DNA of 64,000 nt, taken from positions 62,001 to 126,000 of the forward strand of contig NZ_QGDQ01000003.1 in NCBI RefSeq assembly GCF_003149145.1. The letters are read 5' to 3'. This stretch comes from Quadrisphaera granulorum (GTDB lineage: Bacteria; Actinomycetota; Actinomycetes; Actinomycetales; Quadrisphaeraceae). Both the position numbers and the translations under genes were made by a program. Shown here in pieces: positions 34,886 to 47,478 of the stretch. Position 1 is the stretch's first letter; each line of letters starts with the position of its first letter. The notes beneath the pieces were generated by a model. That model was not told where the DNA came from. It searched no databases and saw only the letters and a list, made by a program, of their open reading frames with translations.

Positions 34886-35011
34886 ACCACCGTCCTCCCA
34901 GCGACGCATACCGCTCCTAGCGTCCCGGCTCGTTGACCGCGGGCTGCCCGCTCGCGGTTGTTCCCCCCGCAGCGCGGATGCACCGCGAGCGCCACTGACC
35001 CGGGAGGCCCC

Positions 35012-36169
35012 GTGCCGTCGATCGACCCCCACCACCAGCAGCTGGTCCGCAACGCGCTGGCGCGTCGCTCCTTCCTGCGGATGGCCGGACTCGCCGGCCT
35101 GGGCGTTGCCGGTGCCAGCGCCCTCGCGGCGTGCGGCGGATCGTCGGACGAAGCGCCCTCCAGCGGCGGCACCAGCGGTGGCGCAGCCAACTACGGCGAG
35201 CTCGCCATCCAGCTCTCGTGGATCAAGAACATCGAGTTCGCCGGTGAGTACTTCGCCGATAGCAAGGGCTACTTCAAGGACGCGGGCTTCTCCAGCGTCA
35301 ACCTCATCGCCGGTGGCGCCGCGGGCACCAGCGCCGAAGCCGCTGTCACCACCGGCAAGGCGCTCGTGGGCCTGTCGGCTCCCACGCTGACCGCACCGGC
35401 CATCAACGAGGGCGCCCCCCTGAAGATCATCGGTGCGACGTTCCAGAAGAACGCGTTCTGCATCGTCTCGCTCGCCTCCAACCCGATCGCCGACCCGGCG
35501 GCGATGAAGGGCAAGAAGATCGGCGTGCAGTCCGGCGGCAACGAGCAGATCTTCTCCGGCCTGCTCAAGGCCAACAACATCGACCCGAGCTCGCTGACCA
35601 TCGTCCCGGTCCAGTACGACCCGACCGTCGTCACCACCGGCGAGGTCGACGGCTTCATGGCGTACGTCACCAACGAGCCGATCCTGCTCAAGGGCAAGGG
35701 CTTCGACACCGTCGAGTTCCTCTTCGCCGACCACGGCCTGCCGCTCGTCACGGAGACGTTCACCGTCGCGCAGGAGACCATCGAGAAGGACCGCGACAAG
35801 CTCAAGGCGTTCCTCAAGGCCGAGATCCTCGGGTGGACCGACGCGCTCAACAATCCCGCGGAAGGCGCCAAGCTCGCGGTGGAGACCTACGGCAAGGACC
35901 TCAACCTCAACCTCGAGGAGCAGATCGAGGAGATCAACGCGCAGGCCACCCTCATCGTCTCGGAGGACACGGTGAAGAACGGCCTGTTCACGATGACCGA
36001 CGAGCTCATCGACATCAACATCAAGTCCCTGGAGACCGCCGGTACCTCGATCACGGCGGAGAAGCTTTTCGACCTCTCGCTGCTCAAGGAGGTCTACTCC
36101 GAGGACCCGTCGCTGATCACGGGCCCGACCCTGACGCCCGAGGCCGCGTCGGCAGCCGCCACCTCCTGA
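35012..36169 (+). CDS. ABC transporter substrate-binding lipoprotein (NMT1/SsuA/TauA type)
   Basis: This 385-residue protein would capture the solute for the permeases at 38-39.8 kb. Its signal has a twin-arginine motif (ARRSFLRM) and a lipobox ending LAAC, so it is probably Tat-exported and lipid-anchored. The mature part is an NMT1/THI5-like two-lobed binding protein (QLSWIKNIEFAGEYFA, GAAGTSAEAAVTTGKALVGL, IGVQSGGNEQIFSGLL, VDGFMAYVTNEPILL). Such proteins bind sulfonates, nitrate, thiamin pyrimidines or riboflavin. The GTG at 35012 follows GGGAGG. A deaminase gene directly downstream suggests a nitrogenous base as solute, which is inference. Confidence 0.9.
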   Translation: MPSIDPHHQQLVRNALARRSFLRMAGLAGLGVAGASALAACGGSSDEAPSSGGTSGGAANYGELAIQLSWIKNIEFAGEYFADSKGYFKDAGFSSVNLIAGGAAGTSAEAAVTTGKALVGLSAPTLTAPAINEGAPLKIIGATFQKNAFCIVSLASNPIADPAAMKGKKIGVQSGGNEQIFSGLLKANNIDPSSLTIVPVQYDPTVVTTGEVDGFMAYVTNEPILLKGKGFDTVEFLFADHGLPLVTETFTVAQETIEKDRDKLKAFLKAEILGWTDALNNPAEGAKLAVETYGKDLNLNLEEQIEEINAQATLIVSEDTVKNGLFTMTDELIDINIKSLETAGTSITAEKLFDLSLLKEVYSEDPSLITGPTLTPEAASAAATS

Positions 36170-36176
36170 CCCACCA

Positions 36177-36212
36177 CCCCCGCGGCGGCCGGACCTCCGG
36201 CCGTCGCGGGGG
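36177..36212. promoter_or_regulatory. 16-bp hairpin behind the binding-protein gene
   Basis: Arms 36177-36192 and 36197-36212 pair over 15 of 16 positions with an ACCT loop, 7 bases after the stop. Such structures often protect the 3' end of a binding-protein message and lower expression of downstream cistrons. Confidence 0.6.
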
Positions 36213-36235
36213 CGCCCACCCGGGAAGGGACCCGC

Positions 36236-37222
36236 ATGGACGCAGCCCTGCTGCCCAAGGCCGAGCTCCACGTGCACGTCGAGGGCACCCTGGAGCCCGA
36301 GCTCGTCGTGGAGCTCGCTCGACGCCACCGCGTGGCGTTGCCCACCGCTGACCCCGAGCTGCTGCGGGCGGCGCGCCACTTCACCGATCTTCAGTCGTTC
36401 CTCGACCAGTACTACGACGCGGCGGAGCTGCTGCGCACCGAGCAGGACTTCCACGACCTCATGGCCGCCTACCTGGCGCGCGCCGAGCGGGCCGGCGTGC
36501 GCCGCGCCGAGGTCTTCCTCGACCCTCAGCACCACACCGGTCGCGGTGTCCCGCTGGAAGCCGTGTTCGGCGGCCTGAGTGCCGCGGCCGCGGCCAGCCC
36601 CGTCTCCGTGGACCTCATCCCGTGCTTCCTGCGTCATCTCGGCCCGGACGCGGCGCTGGAGGCGCTGCGCACCTGGCTCCCTTACCGGGAGCACTTCATC
36701 GGCGTCGGCCTGGACTCCACGGAGATCGGCAATCCGCCCGCCGCCTACGCCCCCGCCTACGCCCTGGCCGCCGCCGAGGGCCTGCACCGCACCGCGCACG
36801 TCGGCGAGGAGGGCACCTCGGCGGACGTCGCGGAGGCCCTCGACACCCTCGGCATCGAGCGGCTCGACCACGGCAACCACGCCCTGGACGACGTCGAGGT
36901 CGTGGCCCGGCTGCGCGACGCGGGCACGCCCCTGACCGTGTGCCCGCTGAGCAACGTGGCACTGCGCGTCGTCGACGACCTCACCGCCCACCCGCTGCCC
37001 GCCATGCTCGACGCGGGCCTCGTCGTGACCGTCAACAGCGACGACCCTGCCTACTTCGGTGGCTATGTCGACGACAATTTCCGCGCCCTGCGTGATGTGG
37101 TGGGCCTCACCGACGCCCAGCTGACCCAGCTGGCGATCGCCTCGTTCGACGCCAGCTTCGCGGAGCCCGCCGCCCGGGCCACCTGGCGCTCCGAGGTGCT
37201 CGCGGCAGCCTTGATCCCGTGA
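36236..37222 (+). CDS. Adenosine deaminase superfamily, adenine-deaminase-like
   Basis: The 328-residue barrel enzyme has all metal and catalytic motifs of the family: [13 protein letters not shown] (HxH), AHVGEEGT (His and catalytic Glu), [17 protein letters not shown] and [11 protein letters not shown]. The last motif, with PAYFGGY, is the one seen in fungal-type adenine deaminases rather than adenosine deaminase, so conversion of adenine to hypoxanthine with release of ammonia is the best guess. GGAAGGGA precedes the ATG. The gene is inside the ABC importer operon, 66 bases after the binding protein and 67 before the ATPase. Confidence 0.85.
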
Positions 37223-37289
37223 CCGCTCCACGGGGCGCCCCGACGCACGCCCCGGCAGACCTGCCCCACCCCGACCACCGAGGAGCACC

Positions 37290-38135
37290 GTGACCACTCA
37301 GTCCACTCCCGCGACCACGACGACGGCGGACCCCGCCCGCGGCGGCGCCCCCGGCAGGACGGGGCTCGACATCCGCGGCCTCACCAAGACCTTCACCTCG
37401 GGCCGGCGCACCGTGACGGCCCTCGACAACGCCAACCTGACCACCCCGCAGGGCTCGTTCCTGTCGCTGCTGGGCCCCTCCGGCTGCGGCAAGTCGACGG
37501 TGCTGCGGATCCTGGCAGGCCTGGAAGACGCGACGTCGGGCCAGGCGCTGGTCAACGGCCTCACGCCGCTGGAGGTGCGGCGCCAGCACAAGCTCGGCAT
37601 CGCCTTCCAGGACTCGGCGCTCCTGCCGTGGCGCAGCGTGGCCTCCAACATCAAGCTGCCGCTCGAGGTGGCGGGCGTGAAGCCTGACCAGGCCTACGTC
37701 GACGAGCTCATCGAGCTCGTCGGCCTCAAGGGCTTCGAGAAGGCCAAGCCGGGGCAGCTGTCCGGCGGTATGCGCCAGCGCGTCTCCATCGCCCGCGCGC
37801 TCGTGGTGAGGCCCGAGGTGCTGCTGCTCGACGAGCCGTTCGGGGCACTGGACGACATGACCCGCCAGCGACTCAACCTCGAGCTGCTGCGCATCTGGAC
37901 CGAGAAGCCCGCCACCACGCTCATGGTCACGCACGGCATCGCCGAGGCGGTGTTCCTGTCGGACATCGTCGCGGTGATGAGCCCCCGCCCGGGCCGCGTG
38001 CTCGAGGTCGTGCCGATCGACCTGCCGCGTCCGCGGACCCCCGAGATGATGCGGACCCCGGAGTTCCACGCCCTGCACGACCACCTGTCGGGCCTGCTGT
38101 TCGGCCGCGGCGGCGCTGCGATGGGCGGGCACTGA
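37290..38135 (+). CDS. ABC transporter ATP-binding protein (SsuB/TauB type)
   Basis: The ATPase powers import by the two permeases that follow. The 281-residue protein has Walker [10 protein letters not shown] near residue 65, the Q-loop [16 protein letters not shown], the signature [15 protein letters not shown], Walker [13 protein letters not shown] and the switch His in [10 protein letters not shown]. The sequence around the Q-loop (LLPWRSV..NI.LPLE) is typical of the nitrate/sulfonate/taurine group. The first 25 residues are a Thr/Pro-rich tail. AGGAG lies 4 bases before the GTG. It overlaps the next gene by one base (TGATG). Confidence 0.95.
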
Positions 38136-38962
38136 TGACCGACCAGACCTTCGCTCCGCCGACGGAGCACGAGGTCGCGGCGCGCGTCCGGATCTCCCGG
38201 GAGCGCCCGCGCTGGCTGGCCGGCGCCATCGGCATCGTCGGCATCCTGGTGCTGTGGTCGCTGCTGGCGGTCACGGTCTTCGCCGACGGCGGGGGTGTGC
38301 CGACCCCGTGGGCGGTCGTCGCCAAGATGGGCTCCGACGGGTGGTCCCTGTACGGGCCCAACGCGAGCATCACCGTCGGCAGTGCCGCGCAGGGCTTCCT
38401 GTGGGGCAACGCCTTCGCCCTGCTGCTGGCCGGCGCCGTCCTCGTCGTCCCTCAGCTCGACGGTCTGGTCACGCAGCTCGGCGTCATCAGCTACTGCATC
38501 CCGCTGACCGCCATCGGCCCGATCATCCAGATCGTCTTCGGGGGGCGCTCCACCTCGATCTTCCTCGCCGCGGTGGCCGTCTTCTTCACCACGCTCATCG
38601 GCGCCCTGCTCGGGCTGCGCGCCGCTGACCGCACGAGCATCGACATGGTGGCCGCGTACGGCGGCAGCCGGCTGCAGCAGCTGCTCAAGGTGCGCCTGAT
38701 CTCGTCGCTGCCGAGCCTGCTCGCCGCCCTCATGATCGCCGCTCCGGCCGCCATGCTCGGGGCGATCATCGGCGAGTACCTGGGCGGCGTCGACAGCGGC
38801 CTCGGGGTGGCCCTCACCAACGCCCAGCAGCAGTTCGACGTGCCCCGCACCTGGGGCCTGGCCATCGCCACCGGCGCGATCGCGGGCGCCGGCTACCTCA
38901 TCTTCAGCCTCGTCTCGCGTGCCGTCACCCCGTGGTCGGCCGGACAGGAGGGCACCTCGTGA
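38135..38962 (+). CDS. ABC transporter permease (SsuC/TauC type), first
   Basis: The 275-residue protein has six hydrophobic segments and the EAA loop that contacts the ATPase (AAYGGSRLQQLLKVRLISSLPS, shown in part as AYGGSRLQQLLKVRLI). The membrane topology fits the BPD_transp_1 fold. It is encoded between the ATPase and a second, different permease, so the channel is a heterodimer. Most sulfonate-type importers have a single homodimeric permease; two permeases are more typical of some pyrimidine and nitrate-related systems. Confidence 0.92.
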   Translation: MTDQTFAPPTEHEVAARVRISRERPRWLAGAIGIVGILVLWSLLAVTVFADGGGVPTPWAVVAKMGSDGWSLYGPNASITVGSAAQGFLWGNAFALLLAGAVLVVPQLDGLVTQLGVISYCIPLTAIGPIIQIVFGGRSTSIFLAAVAVFFTTLIGALLGLRAADRTSIDMVAAYGGSRLQQLLKVRLISSLPSLLAALMIAAPAAMLGAIIGEYLGGVDSGLGVALTNAQQQFDVPRTWGLAIATGAIAGAGYLIFSLVSRAVTPWSAGQEGTS

Positions 38963-39840
38963 GCGCACCCGCCACCACCCCGACCAGCACGGCACCGGCG
39001 AAGGCCCCCGCGCCGCCCGCGGGTGATTCCGTCAACCCGGCCGCTCACATCATCGGGACGGCGGTGTGGCGGGCCTTCCGGCCGCTCGTCGTCTCCGCCG
39101 TCGTCGCCCTCGTCGTGTGGTGGGGCTTCCTCGCGGCGTTCGAGATCAGCCCGTTCGTCGGCAAGACGCCGCAGGCCGTGTGGGCCTACCTCGTCACCGA
39201 CGCCGACGCCGCGGCCAACCGCGCCACCATCGCGGAGCCCCTCGGCGTCACGCTCCAGCACGCGCTCATCGGCTTCGTGGCCGGCATGCTGGCCGCCCTG
39301 ATCGTCGGCGGGGCGTTCGTGGCGTCGTCGGCGCTCGAGCAGTCGCTCATGCCGATCGCCATGCTCCTGCGGTCGGTGCCGCTGGTGGCCATGACCCCGA
39401 TCATCGTGCTGATCTTCGGCCGTGGCCTGGGCTCCATCGCGGTCATGGGCGGCATCGTCGTGTTCTTCCCGGCGCTGGTGAACGTCGTCCAGGGTCTGCG
39501 GTCGGTCCCGCCGACCTCCCGCGACCTCGTGCACGCCTACGGCGGCTCGGACCTGGCCGTCATGCGCCGCGTCGGCATCCCCACCGCGATGCCCGCGATC
39601 TTCGCTGCCGTCCGGATCTCCGTGCCCGGCGCGCTGACCGGCGCCCTCGTGGTGGAGTGGCTGGCCACCGGTGACGGCATCGGCTCGCAGATCCTGTCCG
39701 CCATCGGTGGCTTCCGCTACGACGAGGTGTGGGCGCTCATCGTGGCTGTCACCGCCACCTCGGTGGTCCTGTACACCCTGGTCGGCCTCCTGGAGGGGCT
39801 GGTCCTGGCGCGGTACGCCCCGCACCGCCTCACCCGCTGA
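38959..39840 (+). CDS. ABC transporter permease (SsuC/TauC type), second
   Basis: The GTG at 38959 overlaps the previous stop (GTGA), with AGGAGG 7 bases upstream. The 293-residue protein has a 35-residue Ala/Pro/Thr-rich cytoplasmic start, six hydrophobic segments, and the EAA loop HAYGGSDLAVMRRVGIPTAM. It differs clearly from the first permease. VEWLATGDGIGSQILSAIGG near the end is conserved in this transporter group. A short hairpin follows its stop, which would close the importer operon. Confidence 0.92.
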   Translation: MSAPATTPTSTAPAKAPAPPAGDSVNPAAHIIGTAVWRAFRPLVVSAVVALVVWWGFLAAFEISPFVGKTPQAVWAYLVTDADAAANRATIAEPLGVTLQHALIGFVAGMLAALIVGGAFVASSALEQSLMPIAMLLRSVPLVAMTPIIVLIFGRGLGSIAVMGGIVVFFPALVNVVQGLRSVPPTSRDLVHAYGGSDLAVMRRVGIPTAMPAIFAAVRISVPGALTGALVVEWLATGDGIGSQILSAIGGFRYDEVWALIVAVTATSVVLYTLVGLLEGLVLARYAPHRLTR

Positions 39841-39847
39841 CCCACCC

Positions 39848-39872
39848 CGCTCTCCACCTCCCGGGGAGAGCG
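39848..39872. terminator. 8-bp hairpin closing the ABC importer operon
   Basis: CGCTCTCC (39848-39855) pairs with GGAGAGCG (39865-39872) across a 9-base loop, 7 bases after the permease stop. The stem is short, so some read-through into the nucleoside hydrolase gene is possible. Confidence 0.45.
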
Positions 39873-39905
39873 ACGGCGCCGGCGGCGGCTGCCAGGCTGG
39901 ACTGC

Positions 39906-40874
39906 GTGAGCAGCACAGCCCCAGCCGCCGACCGGCGCCGCGTCGTCCTCGACACCGACCTCGGCACCGACGTCGACGACGCCCTCACCCTCGCCCTGCT
40001 GCTCGGCTCCCCCGAAGTCGAGCTGGTCGGGATCACCACCGTCTACGGCGACACCGACCTGCGCGCCCGCGCCACGTCGCGCCTGCTGGAGCTGGCCGGC
40101 GTCCCCGGTCCAGGAGTCCCGGGTGGCATCCCGGTCCGGGCAGGGGCCCCGACGCCGCTCTCGGGCGCGGAGGTCTGGTGGGCAGGCCACGAGGGCTCCC
40201 TGCTGGGAGACCTCAGGACGGCGACGACGACGCCCCCTGCGCCGGGCACTTCTGCTGCTGACGACGCCGCGGACTGGCTCGCGGCGACGGCCGCCGCTGC
40301 GCCCGGCGAGGTCGACCTGCTCGCGATCGGCCCGCTGACCGGTGTCGCGACGGCGCTGCGGCGCCACCCGGAGCTGGCCGGCCACCTGCGCTCGCTGGTG
40401 CTCATGGGCGGCCGGTGGGACGGCGCCCGCACCACGGACGGGCTGCTGGAAGACGAGCACAACCTCCGCAGTGACGCCGTCGCCGCCGCGGAGGTGCTGA
40501 CCTGCGGAGCGCCGACCGTCGTCGTCGGCCTGGAGATCACCCGGCAGGTGCGGCTGGAGGCCGCGGACGTGGAGCGGATCGCCGCGGCTGGGCCGCTCGG
40601 CGCAGTACTCGCGGCGCAGGTGCGGCAGTGGTGGGAGTTCTGGGACGAGCCCTGGGGCATCCCCCACGACCCGGTGACCGCCCTGCTGCTCGTCGAGCCC
40701 GGCGTGCTCGAGCTCGGCCCTCCGGGCCGGGTGGACGTCGACGAGCGCGGCGCCGTCGTCCACGTCCCCGACGACCGCGGCGCCGTCCGCGTGGCGGTCG
40801 GTGTGGACGCCGAGCGTGCGGCCGCGGCCGTGGTCCGGCGGGTGCTGGCGGGATGCACGGCGAGTCGCCCCTAG
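39906..40874 (+). CDS. Nucleoside hydrolase (IUNH family)
   Basis: These enzymes split ribonucleosides into base and ribose. The 322-residue protein has the calcium-binding signature VVLDTDLGTDVDDALTLALL near residue 14, ITTVYGDTDLRAR, LLAIGPLTGVATALRRHPEL, LVLMGGRW, and the C-terminal PHDPVTALLL carrying the last metal Asp. The His usual in the active site of purine-specific members cannot be assigned with confidence. The gene lies between the importer operon and an adenosine-deaminase-like gene, so purine nucleosides are likely substrates. A CAGGCT box lies 7 bases before the GTG. Confidence 0.88.
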   Translation: MSSTAPAADRRRVVLDTDLGTDVDDALTLALLLGSPEVELVGITTVYGDTDLRARATSRLLELAGVPGPGVPGGIPVRAGAPTPLSGAEVWWAGHEGSLLGDLRTATTTPPAPGTSAADDAADWLAATAAAAPGEVDLLAIGPLTGVATALRRHPELAGHLRSLVLMGGRWDGARTTDGLLEDEHNLRSDAVAAAEVLTCGAPTVVVGLEITRQVRLEAADVERIAAAGPLGAVLAAQVRQWWEFWDEPWGIPHDPVTALLLVEPGVLELGPPGRVDVDERGAVVHVPDDRGAVRVAVGVDAERAAAAVVRRVLAGCTASRP

Positions 40875-40877
40875 CCT
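40872..40877 (+). promoter_or_regulatory. Candidate -10 box (TAGCCT) before the second deaminase gene
   Basis: TAGCCT overlaps the nucleoside-hydrolase stop codon and lies 6 bases before the ATG at 40884, with only GCGCCC between. A leaderless transcript fits better than ribosome binding. Confidence 0.4.
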
Positions 40878-40883
40878 GCGCCC

Positions 40884-41870
40884 ATGACCGCGCGCGACCT
40901 CCGACTGCTCCCCAAGGCTTCCCTGCACACCCACCTCGAGGGGTGCATGCGCCCGTCCACTCTCGCCGAGCTGGCCGACGGCTACGGCATCCCGGTGCCC
41001 GAGACCCGCGGGTACGGCAACTTCGGCGCCTTCGCCGGGCTGTACGACGCCGCGGCGCAGTGCATCAAGTCCGAGGCCGACCTGCGCCGCGTGGTCCGCG
41101 AGGTGGTCGAAGACGCCGCCGCTGACGGCGCGGTCTGGGTGGAGCCCCAGCTGTGGCCCTTCTACGCCAGCCCGGCCCTGGCCGACCCGGGGCAGAACCT
41201 CGACATCGCCCTTGACGAGGGGCGGGCGACGGCGGCGCGCCTAGGGATCGGCTTCGGGCTGATGGTGACCGCCATCCGCGTGCTGCCGACGGAGGACGCC
41301 GAGGCGCTGGCGGAACTGGCGGTCACGCGGGCGGACCACGGTGTGGTCTCGTTCGGGCTCGCGCACGACGAGGTGCTCGGCCCGCCTGCGCCGTTCGCGC
41401 GCGCGTTCGCGGTGGCGCGTGCCGGTGGTCTCGTGGCCGCCCCGCACGCCGGTGAGCTGCTGGGCCCCGACAGCGTGCGGTCGGCCCTGGACGACCTCGG
41501 CGCCGGGCGCATCGCCCACGGCGTGCGCGCCATCGAAGACGCTGCCCTCGTGGAGCGGTTGGCCGCCGAGCGCATCTGCCTGGACGTGTGCCCCACCTCC
41601 AACGTGCTGCTCGGCGTGGTGCCGTCGCTGGCCGAGCACCCGCTGCCCCAGTTGCTGCAGGCGGGGGTGCCGTGCTCGATCAACACCGACGACTCCCTGC
41701 TCTTCGGACCTGGGTTGCTGGAGGAGTACGAGACCGCGCGGACGGTGCTGGGCCTCGACGACGCGCAGCTGGCCGTGGTGGCTCGCAGCGGTATCGAGGC
41801 GGCGGCGCATGCTCCGGCGGCGCTCGTGAACGCGGCGCTGGAGCGGGTGGAGGCCTGGCTGCGGGCGTGA
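40884..41870 (+). CDS. Adenosine deaminase family protein
   Basis: The 328-residue protein is a second member of the deaminase superfamily but only distantly like the one at 36236. It shows LHTHLEGCMRPSTLAELA (HxH), APHAGELLGPDSVRSAL (His and catalytic Glu), RIAHGVRAIED, CPTSNVLLGVV and INTDDSLLFG with the metal Asp. Motif spacing fits adenosine deaminase rather than adenine deaminase, but aminodeoxyfutalosine or methylthioadenosine-type substrates remain possible. It follows the nucleoside hydrolase by 9 bases. Together they would turn adenosine into base, ribose and ammonia. Confidence 0.85.
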   Translation: MTARDLRLLPKASLHTHLEGCMRPSTLAELADGYGIPVPETRGYGNFGAFAGLYDAAAQCIKSEADLRRVVREVVEDAAADGAVWVEPQLWPFYASPALADPGQNLDIALDEGRATAARLGIGFGLMVTAIRVLPTEDAEALAELAVTRADHGVVSFGLAHDEVLGPPAPFARAFAVARAGGLVAAPHAGELLGPDSVRSALDDLGAGRIAHGVRAIEDAALVERLAAERICLDVCPTSNVLLGVVPSLAEHPLPQLLQAGVPCSINTDDSLLFGPGLLEEYETARTVLGLDDAQLAVVARSGIEAAAHAPAALVNAALERVEAWLRA

Positions 41871-42495: not shown

Positions 42496-43602
42496 GTGCT
42501 GCTCACCCTCGTCTTGCTGCTCGCCTGCGCCGTGCTCATCTACCTGGCGTGCGAATGGTTCGTCAACGCCGTCGAGTGGCTCGGCGTGCGCATGGCCGTC
42601 GGGTCGGCGGCTGTGGGCACCGTGCTGGCCGCCGCCGGCACGGCGCTGCCCGAGAGCGTGGTGACGCTGGTGGCGGTGCTGTTCGGCTCACAGGAGTCCG
42701 GTGCCGACGTGGGTGTCGGCGCGGCGCTGGGCGGCCCGCTCGTCGTGGGGAGCCTCGCGTACGCCGTCGTCGGCGTCGTCCTGCTCACCAACCGCAGGTC
42801 GGTCCGGCGTACGGCCCGGCTGAGTGCGGTCGCCCAGCCGGTGGGTGCCGCAGCGGCGGGCGGCCACGGCCAGGGCGGCCAGAGCTCTGCGGCGGCCGGT
42901 GGCCCGACCGACGCCGAGGCCGCGCAGCTGGCCGCGTTGGACACCCGCTCCCTCGCCCGCGACCAGACCTGGTTCCTGGTCTGCTTCGCCGCGGCGGCCG
43001 GTCTCGGCCTGGTGGCGTTCGCGGTCAAGCCGTGGCTGGGCTGGGTGTTCTTCGGTGCGTACGCGGTCTACTGCTGGCGCCAGGTCCGCGCCGGCGGTGA
43101 CGCCCACAGCGCCGAAGACCTCGAACCGCTCAAGGCGCAGCCGCGGCGCGAGCGGCCGAGCACCACCGCCGTCGTCGTCCAGGTGGTCGTGTCACTGGTC
43201 GTGATCTTCGGCGCGTCGCAGGTCTTCGTCGGCCAGCTCGAGTCGCTGGCCCCGCAGCTCGGGCTGCCGGCGTCCCTTGTCGCGCTGCTCCTGGCCCCTA
43301 TCGCCACCGAGCTGCCCGAGATGCTCAACGCGCTGATCTGGGTACGCAAGGGCAAGGTGTCACTCGCGCTGGGCAACCTGGCGGGCTCGATGGTCATCCA
43401 GGCGACCATCCCGACCGGCCTCGGTCTGGCCTTCACGGGCTGGCAGGTGCAGGGTCCGCTGCTCGTGGCCGCCGTCGCCACGCTGGTGTGCGTGAGCTAC
43501 CTGCTGGTGCTCTTCGCCACCCGTCGCGTCACGGCGGTGCGTCTGGCCGCGGCGGCCACCGCGTACGCCGCGTTCGCCGTCGGCCTGGCCGTCACCCTCT
43601 GA
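42496..43602 (+). CDS. Sodium/calcium exchanger family membrane protein
   Basis: The CaCA superfamily moves Ca2+ or other cations against Na+ or protons. The 368-residue protein has two inverted halves, each with an alpha repeat: GTVLAAAGTALPESVVTL in the first and APIATELPEMLNALIW in the second, both with the ion-binding Glu, plus GNLAGSMVIQATIP. About ten hydrophobic segments are visible. A Gly/Ala/Ser-rich cytoplasmic loop (residues about 115-160) joins the halves. GAGGA lies 5 bases before the GTG. The ion is not predictable from sequence. Confidence 0.88.
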   Translation: MLLTLVLLLACAVLIYLACEWFVNAVEWLGVRMAVGSAAVGTVLAAAGTALPESVVTLVAVLFGSQESGADVGVGAALGGPLVVGSLAYAVVGVVLLTNRRSVRRTARLSAVAQPVGAAAAGGHGQGGQSSAAAGGPTDAEAAQLAALDTRSLARDQTWFLVCFAAAAGLGLVAFAVKPWLGWVFFGAYAVYCWRQVRAGGDAHSAEDLEPLKAQPRRERPSTTAVVVQVVVSLVVIFGASQVFVGQLESLAPQLGLPASLVALLLAPIATELPEMLNALIWVRKGKVSLALGNLAGSMVIQATIPTGLGLAFTGWQVQGPLLVAAVATLVCVSYLLVLFATRRVTAVRLAAAATAYAAFAVGLAVTL

Positions 43603-43616
43603 CCCGTCCCTCTTCT

Positions 43617-43729
43617 CGCACTCTCCGCGGCAAGTGCGCCTCCTGCGCCTCGGGTAGCGCACTTGCCGAGGAAAGTGCGCTACCCGGGGGCGCTCTTCCC
43701 GCACTTTCCGCGGCACGTGCGGGAAGAGC
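43617..43729. terminator. Array of three related hairpins between convergent genes
   Basis: Three stems follow one another: a 6-bp stem (43617-43638), a 13-bp stem (43652-43685) and a 13-bp stem (43692-43729). All share a GCACTT/AAGTGC-like core, so they look like diverged copies. They lie between the exchanger gene and the convergent monooxygenase gene and probably end both transcripts. Confidence 0.65.
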
Positions 43730-43745
43730 AGGAGGACGACGAGGG

Positions 43746-45083
43746 TCAGCCCGCGGGCGTGGCGGCGGTGTGCGTGCCGATGGCCCACACGTAGGGCGGC
43801 GTCGTGCCGTTGACCGACCAGTCACCGACGATGCGCGCCTTGTAGATCACCGGGTTGTGCGAGGCGACCGTGCGGGCATTGCGCCAGTGCCGGTCGAGGT
43901 CCTTGGCCCGCGACGTGCCCGAGGCCCCGAGCGTGTTGAACAGCAGCGTCGCCGCGCGCGGCACGCTCTCGGAGAGCACCACCTGCGCCTGCGCAGTGGC
44001 GATCTCCGCGCGGACGTTGGCGGCGAGGTCGGCCTCGCCGTCGCGGTCGTGGGCGGTGTCGGCGGCACCCTGGACCGCGGCGGCCGCCGCCAGCGCGGTG
44101 GCCCGCGCCGCGAACGCGATCGAGGAGATCTCACCCGCGACGGCGAGGACCTGCGGGTCCTCACGCACCACGGGCGCCAGGCCGTGGCTGTAGGAGCGGG
44201 TGCGGGCACGCACCTCGTGCGCGGTGTCGCGCTCGACGGCGGCCGCGATGCCGGCATGCACCGCGAGCAGCACCAGCTGGTACAGCGCGGTCTGGTAGCG
44301 GAACCTGTCGTCGAAGGCCGCGAGATCGTCGTCCTCGACGAGGGCGTCGTCGAGGACGAGGGTTCCGGTGCCGGTGAGCTGCTGGCCGAACCCATCCCAG
44401 TCGTCGCTGACGGTGACGCCGGGCTGGTCCAGGCGCACCAGCGCGGTGACGGTGCCGGCGGCGGCGTCACCGGCCTCCTGTGCGGCGAGGGTGGCGTCGT
44501 CGGTGAGCTGGGCGACGACGTCGCTCCAGCCGGCGTAGATCGTTCCGGTCGTGTAGTACTTGCGGCCGCTGATGCGCCAGCGGCCGTCGGCGTCGCGGCG
44601 CACCTTGGTCGCCTGACCGCCGAGCGTGGTGCCGCCGGTCTCGCTCCAGGCGTTACCGGTCCACTCGCCGGCGGCGATGCGCGCGAACCACGCGTCGCGG
44701 TAGGGCCCTTCCGGCAGCGAGAGCAGGTGCTCGACCCACGCGATCTGGCCGCGGAAGATCTGCGGGAGGTTGGAGTCCGCAGCGGCCAGGTCGATGAGCA
44801 GCTCGGTGAAGGCCACGAGATCGAGCCCGTCACCGCCGTGCTCCACCGGCACGCGCAGCTGCGTGAAGCCCGCCTCGACGAGGGCCTGCACCTGCGCGCG
44901 GGGCAGTTCGTGGTCGACCTCACGCTGCACCACGCCCTGCGCCACGTCGTCGAAGACGGGCTGCAGGCGGGCGCGGGCCGCGGCAAGCCGCTCACGTTGG
45001 CTGCCGGCGGAGTGGGGCCGGCTGGTCGACGGGGCAGACGAATCGGCTGACGATGCGGCAGTCAGCTGGGTTGCGGTGCTCAT
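43746..45083 (-). CDS. DszC/SfnC-type flavin monooxygenase of the acyl-CoA dehydrogenase fold
   Basis: Members of this branch use reduced FMN to oxygenate organosulfur compounds for sulfur supply. The 445-residue protein shows the acyl-CoA dehydrogenase fold: FTQLRVPVEHGGDGLDLVAF, GQIAWVEHLLSLPEGPYRDA, GNAWSETGG, ISGRKYYTTGTIYAGWSDVV and a C-terminal helical domain ending RNARTVASHNPVIYKARIVG, a signature of the DszC group. The catalytic Glu of true acyl-CoA dehydrogenases is not evident. Regulation supports the call: a SAM-IV riboswitch lies in its leader. The ATG at 45083 has GAGGAG about 11 bases upstream. Confidence 0.85.
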   Translation of the reverse strand: MSTATQLTAASSADSSAPSTSRPHSAGSQRERLAAARARLQPVFDDVAQGVVQREVDHELPRAQVQALVEAGFTQLRVPVEHGGDGLDLVAFTELLIDLAAADSNLPQIFRGQIAWVEHLLSLPEGPYRDAWFARIAAGEWTGNAWSETGGTTLGGQATKVRRDADGRWRISGRKYYTTGTIYAGWSDVVAQLTDDATLAAQEAGDAAAGTVTALVRLDQPGVTVSDDWDGFGQQLTGTGTLVLDDALVEDDDLAAFDDRFRYQTALYQLVLLAVHAGIAAAVERDTAHEVRARTRSYSHGLAPVVREDPQVLAVAGEISSIAFAARATALAAAAAVQGAADTAHDRDGEADLAANVRAEIATAQAQVVLSESVPRAATLLFNTLGASGTSRAKDLDRHWRNARTVASHNPVIYKARIVGDWSVNGTTPPYVWAIGTHTAATPAG

Positions 45084-45139
45084 GCGACGGTGCTCTCCTC
45101 GGCGTTCGGTCATCGTTCACCAGGCGGCGATGCCCGGGC

Positions 45140-45262
45140 CCGACGAGGAGGAGCGCGTCGTTACCGGGCGCGGACGCCTGGTCCGGTCATCACCCGGAGC
45201 ACCCCACGACGCGGGGGTTGCCGGCCAGCGAGCCGGGGCTTGGCGCTGGCACTCATGACCTG
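45140..45262 (-). promoter_or_regulatory. SAM-IV riboswitch
   Basis: Read on the minus strand, the core (45260 to 45185) begins GGTCATGAGTGCCAGCG and ends GGGTGATGACC, closely matching the SAM-IV aptamer known from mycobacteria and other actinobacteria. P1 is GGTCAT with ATGACC, P2 is GCCAGCG with CGCTGGC, and P3 is CCCC with GGGG; GCCGGCAACC and GGGGTGC are conserved junction parts. A GGCG-TCCG-CGCC hairpin downstream fits the extra stem. A TACGGT box at 45274-45269 would start transcription right at the aptamer. S-adenosylmethionine binding should turn the monooxygenase gene off. Confidence 0.9.
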
Positions 45263-45277
45263 GCTCGCACCGTAGCG

Positions 45278-46348
45278 TCAGGGCACCCGGCGGGTCCAGG
45301 CCGGATCGAGGTACTTGCGCTGGGCGAGCTCGCGGGCAGCGGCCAGCTCGACGTCGGTGACGTCGTCGTCCGCGAGCCCGTAGCGGCCGCGGAACGACGC
45401 GGCCATGGCAGCGATGACGTCCTCGCGAGCCATGCCCGTCTGGGATCGCAGAGGGTCGACGCGCTTGCCGGCGCTCGTGGTGCCCTTGTCGGAGAGCTTC
45501 TCGCGCCCGATGCGCAGCACCTGCAGCATCTTCGTGGCGTCGATGTCGTACGCCATGGTCACGTGGTGCAGCACCGCGCCGGGCACGCGCTTCTGCGCCG
45601 CTCCGGCGATCTTGCCGGCCGCGGAGACGATGTCGTTGATGGGGCGGTACTCGGCCTTGACGCCCAGGTCACCGAGGGCTTCGAGCACCCACGCGTCGAG
45701 GTAGGCGTAGGAGTCGACGAAGCTCAGCCCGGCGACCAGGGATTCGGGCACCGTGAGCGACCACGTGATGGTGTTGCCGGGCTCGGCGAACATCGCCCCA
45801 CCCCCGCTGATCCGGCGGACGACGTCGACCCCCAGCGCCGATGCCGCCTCGGCGTCCACCTCGTTGCGCAGCGACTGGAAGCTCCCGATGATCACCGTCG
45901 GGCGGTCCCACTCCCACACGCGCAGCGTCGGGCCGCGGCGTCCGGCCGCGACCTCACCGAGCAGCACCTCGTCGAGCGCCATGAGGAGCTCGGGGCTCTC
46001 CGGGCCCCGGTGCACGAGCGACCAGGAGTGGTCGGCGAAGCTCGTCGCGCGGGCCAGGGCGCGCCGGACGACGACAGCGACGGCCTCCGGCGTGATCCCC
46101 AGGAGCACCGCTCCGGACGGCAGCGCGGCACGCACCCGGGCGGCGAGGTCGGCGGCGTCGGTGTCGGCGGAGACGCCCTCCAGCGCGCCGTTGATGGCCT
46201 CGAGCGCGTCGTCGGGTTCGAGGAAGAAGTCACCCGAGAGCCGCACGTCGCGCAGCACCGCGCCGGTGGCGGAACCGGCGCCGTCGTCGTCGACCTCGAG
46301 GTCGACGACGACAAGCTTGCCTCCGGGAACCTTGTACTCGCCGTGCAC
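45278..46348 (-). CDS. Lipoate-protein ligase family, accessory domain at the N-terminus
   Basis: The enzyme would activate free lipoate with ATP and attach it to E2 or H-protein lysines. Of its 356 residues, about 110-330 form the BPL/LplA catalytic domain: RVWEWDRPTVIIGSFQSL, RRISGGGAMFAEPGNTITWS and INDIVSAAGKIAGAAQKR, with the catalytic Lys. Residues 1-90 (YKVPGGKLVVVDLEV, LSGDFFLEPDDALEAINGAL) resemble the small accessory LplB/C-terminal domain, which in E. coli LplA sits at the other end. The GTG at 46348 has AGCAGG upstream. It follows tsaD by 32 bases. Confidence 0.85.
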   Translation of the reverse strand: MHGEYKVPGGKLVVVDLEVDDDGAGSATGAVLRDVRLSGDFFLEPDDALEAINGALEGVSADTDAADLAARVRAALPSGAVLLGITPEAVAVVVRRALARATSFADHSWSLVHRGPESPELLMALDEVLLGEVAAGRRGPTLRVWEWDRPTVIIGSFQSLRNEVDAEAASALGVDVVRRISGGGAMFAEPGNTITWSLTVPESLVAGLSFVDSYAYLDAWVLEALGDLGVKAEYRPINDIVSAAGKIAGAAQKRVPGAVLHHVTMAYDIDATKMLQVLRIGREKLSDKGTTSAGKRVDPLRSQTGMAREDVIAAMAASFRGRYGLADDDVTDVELAAARELAQRKYLDPAWTRRVP

Positions 46349-46380
46349 GGCGGAACCTGCTCTCTGCTTCGAACGACGCG

Positions 46381-47478
46381 TCAGACGATGATGGTGGACA
46401 CCGGCAGGCCGGGGTCGGTGGCCAGCTCCAGCGGTGACGGGCCGAGCCCGTCGGCCAGCACCAGCGCCCCGAGCGCCGCGACCATGGCCCCGTTGTCGGT
46501 GCACAGCCGCAGCGGGGGCACCCGCAGGTCCAGACCGGCGGCCTCGCACCGCTCGGCGAGCAGGCCGCGCACCCGCGCGTTGGCGGCCACCCCACCGCCC
46601 AGCAGCACGGTCTGCACGCCGCGCTCCTGGGCCGCGGTGACGGTCTTGCGGGACAGGACGTCGGCGACGGCCTCCGAGAAGGACGCGGCGACGTCCGCGA
46701 CGAACGCCTCGCCGAGCTCAGCGCCGGGTTCGAGGGAGCGGCGGTGGGCGTCGACCTGCCGCGCGACCGCCGTCTTCAGACCCGAGAAGGAGAAGTCGTA
46801 GGGGTGGCGGCGCAGGTCGTGCGCGGCCGTCAGGCCGCGGGGGAAGGCGAACGCGGCGGGGTCGCCGCGCTCGGCGGCGCGCTGCACGTGGGGCCCCCCG
46901 GGGTAGGGCAGGCCGAGCAGGCGGGCGACCTTGTCGAAGGCCTCGCCGGCGGCGTCGTCGAGGGTTTGGCCGAGCAGCTCCACGCGCATTGCCCCGACCC
47001 CCTGCCTCCCCTGATGCACGGGGCTGTGGACGTCGAGGAGCTCGGTGTGACCCCCGGAGACCAGCAGCGCGACACTCCGCTCCGGCAGCGCGCCGGAGAC
47101 GAGGACGTCGACGGCGACGTGCGCGACGAGATGGTTCACCCCGAGCAGCGGGACGTCGAGGGCGAGGGCGAGCGCCTTGGCCGCCGCCACGCCGACGAGC
47201 AGCGCCCCCGCGAGGCCAGGCCCGGCGGTCACCGCCACGGCGTCGACGTCGGCGAGGGTGACGCCGGCCTCCTCGCAGGCGCGGCGCATCGTCGGCAGGA
47301 ACGCCTCCAGGTGCGCGCGGCTGGCGATCTCGGGGACGACACCGCCGAACCTCACGTGCTCGTCGACGCTGCTGGCGACGGCGTGCCCGAGCAGCGTCGC
47401 CCCACGCACGAGCGCGACGCCGGTCTCGTCGCAGGAGCTCTCGATACCGAGCACGAGCGGATCAGCGGCCAGGGTCAC
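46381..47478 (-). CDS. tsaD: tRNA N6-adenosine threonylcarbamoyltransferase
   Basis: TsaD transfers threonylcarbamoyl to A37 of ANN-decoding tRNAs, working with TsaB and TsaE. The 365-residue protein has the ASKHA-fold motifs [35 protein letters not shown], the metal-binding VNHLVAH (His pair), [11 protein letters not shown] and [14 protein letters not shown]. The GTG at 47478 has no ribosome-binding site but a TACGCT box 6 bases upstream. In most actinobacteria tsaD directly follows rimI; here a phosphatase gene separates them. Confidence 0.97.

Follow-up and report, generated by a model that had tools for sequence, protein, structure and literature searches.

The gene at 43746-45083 lies on the minus strand of the window, the 64,000-nt stretch of Quadrisphaera granulorum DNA analyzed here, and its product has an acyl-CoA-dehydrogenase fold. 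The question raised by this locus is what the protein does and what controls its expression. A sequence-only reading had drawn a SAM-IV riboswitch at 45140-45262, in front of the gene, and had taken the gene for a SAM-repressed sulfur-acquisition enzyme. The explanation favored here, with a probability of roughly 0.85, is a sulfur-scavenging monooxygenase that is under SAM-IV control and belongs to a SAM regulon. The features of the locus are listed in Table 1.

Table 1. Features of the SAM-IV leader and its gene (window positions; all on the minus strand)
Feature	Position	Strand	Basis or remark
-35-like TGGACC	45293-45298	-	sequence; inside end of upstream lplA gene
-10 box TACGGT	45269-45274	-	TAnnnT similarly spaced in 7/9 SAM-IV leaders of the genome
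SAM-IV riboswitch aptamer	45152-45260	-	full-length Rfam RF00634 match; pair counts in 18 aptamers
P1 (GGUC/GACC)	45260-45257/45188-45185	-	helix of SAM-IV aptamer
P2 (P2a/P2b)	45252-45223	-	helix of SAM-IV aptamer
PK-1 5' strand CCCGG, P2b loop	45233-45237	-	5 bp with J3/1 strand at 45193-45197
P3	45222-45198	-	helix of SAM-IV aptamer
PK-2 5' strand CGCGUCGU, P3 loop	45206-45213	-	8-bp complement of 45154-45161
P5	about 45182-45163	-	by hand and cmscan; two non-standard pairs
PK-2 3' strand ACGACGCG, 3' tail	45154-45161	-	pairs with 45206-45213; covariation in 18 aptamers
Candidate anti-Shine-Dalgarno CUCCUCG	45144-45150	-	complements Shine-Dalgarno region; tentative, pairing no stronger than in shuffled leaders
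Shine-Dalgarno GAGGAG	45095-45100	-	11 nt before start codon; also in relatives' leaders
Group D FMN-dependent monooxygenase (SfnB/DszC/MsuC group), 445 aa	43746-45083	-	profiles, PDB, Foldseek

Every defining feature that was tested assigns the leader RNA to the SAM-IV riboswitches, a class already known. An Rfam 15 search of the whole 64 kb returned SAM-IV (RF00634) as the sole family scoring above threshold, with 83.8 bits against a gathering cut-off of 38 (E 1.8e-13). The match covers model positions 1-116 of 116 and is complete at both ends. The sequence-only reading had named a covariance-model search as the check on its class assignment, and the assignment is borne out; the element it drew is the same one with a few extra bases.

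Pairing was examined in an alignment of 18 aptamers, composed of 10 orthologous leaders and the 8 other SAM-IV copies of the same genome. Overall, 93.9% of the paired cells hold a pair, vs 33-49% after the 3' partners are slid by one to three columns. The claim that P1, P2, and P3 are intact agrees with these counts: all three can be drawn, and they are paired in 97%, 100%, and 100% of cells, respectively. PK-1 is paired in every cell of its five pairs, one of which shows a compensatory change (CG to UA in four sequences). PK-2, formed by the P3 loop and the 3' tail, is a SAM-IV feature that is absent from SAM-I and is present in the window RNA. It has eight pairs in the window copy, is paired in 77% of cells, and accounts for 5 of the 11 pairs with two-sided changes. 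Its topology agrees with the SAM-IV cryo-EM structure paper (PMC6890682).

Transcription is predicted to begin at the aptamer itself. The TACGGT box stands 8 nt upstream of where the aptamer begins, and a spacer of 18 nt separates it from TGGACC. In the genome, 7 of the 9 SAM-IV and 4 of the 6 SAM-I leaders have a TAnnnT box whose end falls 6-10 nt upstream of the aptamer; among random 13-nt windows drawn from this sequence, 0.1% contain one. TGGACC recurs in three leaders of the same genus (L017-L019). Kineococcus leaders carry TGGACC or TTGAAC and lack TAnnnT, with a TTnnCT-like box at the equivalent position. The measured promoter consensus of Streptomyces lividans is TAnnnT/nTGACn (PMC8079986), and the SAM-IV transcript of Corynebacterium glutamicum starts 2 nt before the aptamer (PMC3890552). 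Because the TAnnnT box is conserved in place and these two precedents point the same way, a predicted start at or just before 45260, i.e., at the aptamer's first bases, is well supported. The earlier placement of the start by the TACGGT box therefore holds. The upstream gene (45278-46549) codes for LplAB, a fused lipoate-protein ligase that scores 551 bits and passes the cut-off, and the riboswitch promoter overlaps the last codons of lplA.

The protein encoded downstream shows only generic acyl-CoA-dehydrogenase domains in Pfam, and these weakly. Its best NCBIfam match is the SfnB family (TIGR04022), at 237.5 bits against a curated cut-off of 430.9, followed by the DszC family (NF043015), at 106.1 bits against 850; both cut-offs are missed. 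Single-sequence and profile searches alike rank TdsC, MsuC, and DszC at the head of the PDB. With the AlphaFold model (pLDDT 80), Foldseek ranks 1-27 are all DszC, TdsC, MAB_4123, or MsuC, ahead of every acyl-CoA dehydrogenase. The motif DRxWRNxRT..H[ND]P..YK is common to the protein and to DszC, TdsC, and MsuC. In 14 relatives the C-terminal motif, DRHWRNARTVASHNPVIYK, hardly varies, and its counterpart in the alignment with DszC is DRFWRNVRTHSLHDPVSYK. Judged by sequence and modeled fold, the protein is a group D FMN monooxygenase of an unnamed subfamily and a predicted S-oxygenase. The label "DszC-type" thus suits the fold and the group but not the family, for which the SfnB and DszC cut-offs are missed. 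The protein had also been called otherwise anonymous, which is not quite so: despite the missed cut-offs, homology alone is enough to put it among the sulfur-acquisition monooxygenases.

An in-frame ATG at 45113 was considered as the start and rejected; it is absent from relatives, and the start codon at 45083 is better. The next gene downstream is on the opposite strand, and 43746-45083 is therefore probably transcribed alone.

The pairing of RNA and gene is conserved. A SAM-IV aptamer lies just upstream in all 12 members that share about 67% identity or more and for which upstream sequence was available. These are the window copy, four from the same genus (L017-L020), and seven from Kineococcus, which belongs to another family (L022-L026, L177, and L185). 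A 45-47% identical homologue (L032) has a SAM-I aptamer directly upstream, and in Arthrobacter (L170), SAM-IV precedes the first gene of a pair, one gene upstream of the homologue. Two RNA classes therefore link the gene family to SAM sensing. Most relatives at 44-56% identity have no SAM riboswitch within 1.5 kb. Relatives of about 50% identity adjoin sfnG in Pseudomonas and Nocardioides, and one in Raoultella adjoins SsuA and an MFS transporter. In one Kineococcus genome, the orthologue and a gene for an MFS-type transporter are separated by divergent SAM-IV aptamers (L185:2802-3211).

The genome encodes nine SAM-IV and six SAM-I aptamers, two of the SAM-I copies falling just below the gathering cut-off. 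Their genes were annotated from the genome stretches around the aptamers. SAM-IV precedes MetY-MetX, two MetQNI-type importers, and a SufS-like class V aminotransferase. It also precedes luciferase-like monooxygenases, a sugar-type ABC permease, the 43746-45083 gene, and another SfnB/DszC-type gene. SAM-I precedes SfnG (565 bits, cut-off 383), SsuB-SsuA, a flavin reductase, and a MetY-like enzyme with a monooxygenase. Of two further SAM-I operons, one combines genes for a rhodanese, an SsuD-like monooxygenase, and an SfnB-like protein; the other combines an ABC transporter, a monooxygenase of NtaA/DmoA type, and an SfnB/DszC-type gene. For a few regulon genes, e.g., the sugar-type ABC transporters, a link to sulfur is not evident. 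TIGR04022 matches at four places in the genome, all four in SAM-riboswitch operons; as a rough estimate, the chance of this is near 1e-8 if such operons make up about 1% of genes. The other three SfnB/DszC-type proteins are 27-30% identical to the window protein.

Two places in the genome hold paired aptamers. On contig C23 (L009:6396-6730), two outward-facing SAM-IV aptamers 111 bp apart are flanked by the SufS-like class V aminotransferase and a luciferase-like monooxygenase. On contig C31 (L015:4110-4415), SAM-I and SAM-IV stand back to back before divergent operons, with the rhodanese, SsuD-like, and SfnB-like genes on one side and the sugar-type ABC permease on the other. Within the window, a cluster at 34958-41870 combines an ABC transporter of NMT1/SsuA-like type with a nucleoside hydrolase and two genes for adenosine deaminase. 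Because no Rfam riboswitch is found near it, this cluster may serve the salvage of nucleosides or bases rather than sulfur metabolism.

The proposed mechanism would run as follows. An mRNA would be driven by a promoter of housekeeping type that overlaps the 3' end of lplA, and, as judged from the promoter boxes and their conservation, would start at the first bases of the aptamer. When plentiful, S-adenosylmethionine would bind the P1/P3/PK-1/PK-2 core, as expected of the class. With SAM bound, the aptamer would reduce the output of the one gene that follows, most probably via the 68 nt between aptamer and start codon, by masking of the ribosome-binding site or by premature termination. Low sulfur, and with it low SAM, would turn the gene on, and its product would be an FMNH2-dependent, two-component monooxygenase belonging to the SfnB/DszC/MsuC group. 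This enzyme would S-oxygenate a small organosulfur compound as a step in sulfur scavenging; its most probable substrates would be sulfides, sulfoxides, or sulfinates on the route through dimethyl sulfide and dimethyl sulfone. The gene would be one unit of a SAM-sensing regulon with nine SAM-IV and six SAM-I leaders. SAM repression of the gene itself is predicted from the riboswitch class. Predicted SAM repression of organosulfur scavenging is well supported because the RNA-gene link is conserved, many of the regulon genes are sulfur genes, and relatives adjoin sfnG. The sulfur-acquisition role that had been assigned from the RNA now draws as well on SfnB/DszC/MsuC sequence and fold, on the genome's other riboswitch genes, and on the sfnG and ssuA neighbors.

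Several known systems resemble parts of this one. SfnG converts dimethyl sulfone to methanesulfinate, MsuC (group D) takes this to methanesulfonate, and MsuD frees sulfite (PMC8234197). The group D enzymes Dms1-Dms3 of Acinetobacter baylyi oxidize DMS and DMSO (PMC13352529), and are likened to the window protein by description, on account of the group D fold and sulfur scavenging. Candidate genes for the remaining steps of their route, from DMS via DMSO2, methanesulfinate, and methanesulfonate to sulfite, are found within the regulon of the window organism. Dms1-Dms3 are not known to be controlled by a riboswitch. DszC and TdsC (dibenzothiophene) and MsuC (methanesulfinate) are the closest solved structures by sequence and fold and share the motif described above. 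The window protein differs in being only 21-26% identical to them and in being encoded by a single gene without dszAB partners. SfnB is alike in its NCBIfam rank, its fold, and the sfnG or ssuA neighbors of the window protein's relatives; it differs in the score and in that the window gene would be under riboswitch control. The sfn genes of Pseudomonas are regulated by transcription factors, SfnR among them, and not by a riboswitch.

As a SAM-IV RNA, the window leader has the full-length match, P1-P3, P5, PK-1, PK-2, an actinobacterial host, and a predicted start just before the aptamer. Its predicted target, a group D flavin monooxygenase, is unlike the published ones. Those in the literature searched are an O-acetylhomoserine sulfhydrylase in Mycobacterium avium (PMC3774663), class V aminotransferases in two Streptomyces (PMC8079986 and PMC8269248), and cg1478 in C. 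glutamicum (PMC3890552). A survey of RNA regulons (PMC3766115) covers the actinobacteria as Corynebacteriaceae and Mycobacteriaceae only. The sequence-only reading knew of no description of the gene as a SAM-IV target, and the literature search likewise found no paper linking SAM-IV to an SfnB/DszC-type enzyme, the gene lists of the founding SAM-IV paper (Weinberg et al. 2008) lying outside its scope. The class is known; within the literature searched, neither the target gene nor the extent of the regulon appears to have been described. The assignment would give an unnamed monooxygenase subfamily of acyl-CoA-dehydrogenase fold a predicted role in sulfur scavenging at low SAM. It would also add organosulfur oxygenases to the SAM-IV targets in the literature searched, which comprise methionine synthesis and a class V aminotransferase. 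The conserved RNA-gene pairing points to uncharacterized monooxygenases and transporters as candidates for sulfur release, and the regulon provides a compact model system in which actinobacterial sulfur control is based on RNA.

The alternatives concern the enzyme, the aptamer, and the switching step. It is very unlikely that a true SAM-IV aptamer here precedes an ordinary acyl-CoA dehydrogenase with no sulfur role. The generic Pfam domains and the two missed cut-offs would fit such an enzyme, but DszC, TdsC, and MsuC outrank all acyl-CoA dehydrogenases by sequence and by fold, distant bacteria keep sfnG and ssuA beside their copies, and SAM control is kept in two genera. Least probable of all is a degenerate aptamer that has lost SAM binding. 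The window copy does score below most other SAM-IV copies of the genome, and its P3 is shorter by 3 nt; against this stand its full pairing, its conservation in two genera with compensatory changes, and SAM-IV core blocks that are invariant across the 18 aptamer sequences. A switch that turns the gene on with SAM is hardly to be expected either, even though the platform analysis gave no direction. The genes downstream of the genome's aptamers serve biosynthesis, import, and scavenging, for which feedback logic calls for repression at high SAM. Riboswitches of this clan generally repress expression in response to SAM, and an ON switch would run contrary to that.

The step by which a SAM-repressed gene of this kind would be switched off is more evenly balanced, and premature termination and translational control have similar chances, the former being put only a little below even odds. 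Termination is rated so high because published SAM-IV leaders give short transcripts: that of Streptomyces clavuligerus is among the strongest premature units (PMC8269248), and that of C. glutamicum yields a transcript of roughly 135 nt (PMC3890552). GC-rich hairpins can be drawn between aptamer and Shine-Dalgarno in relatives, but they are not significant in such GC-rich sequence, the window's genus and Kineococcus share little of the platform, and no terminator-like site with a U-run is present in 43500-45500. Two designs for translational control were tried, and neither is claimed. Sequestration of the Shine-Dalgarno is suggested by MFE folds, which pair most of it in 10 of 10 orthologous leaders, yet the opening energies are no higher than in shuffled sequence, with a marginal excess in two. 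A PK-2 3' strand that pairs with a downstream element and so hides the anti-Shine-Dalgarno can be drawn in ten leaders, with energies no better than those of dinucleotide shuffles. The mean z of the duplex between PK-2 and its competitor is -0.77 in the ten orthologous leaders and 0.06 in 48 SAM-IV leaders.

In five of the six SAM-I leaders of the genome (L082:15044-15134, L082:5938-6034, L083:7316-7417, L084:7191-7289, and L015:4110-4198), the P1 3' strand (GAUGGAGG or GAUGGGAG) resembles the Shine-Dalgarno of a nearby downstream start codon. SAM binding would therefore mask this apparent Shine-Dalgarno directly.

Short open reading frames directly 3' of some SAM aptamers encode peptides ending in S-x-x-C-R, e.g., MVMPPAGLSLVRRRHVDLLHHASALCRR. 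They follow SAM-IV on contigs C5 (L012:4088-4177) and C22 (L014, after 8580 on the minus strand), and SAM-I on contigs C31 (L015, after 4110 on the minus strand) and C27 (L083, after 7316 on the minus strand). Three of these peptides have weak NCBIfam matches to "putative leader peptide", under the cut-off. The arrangement suggests a SAM aptamer stacked before a putative cysteine attenuator. A tentative extension, rated well short of even odds, is that organosulfur scavenging is largely run by RNA in this organism. About 15 SAM aptamers of two classes would govern the DMS/DMSO2/sulfonate-to-sulfite route together with methionine synthesis and import, and some leaders would act as SAM-gated, cysteine-sensing attenuators, a two-metabolite gate. 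On C31 and C27, the apparent Shine-Dalgarno of the putative leader peptide lies within the P1 strand of the SAM-I aptamer.
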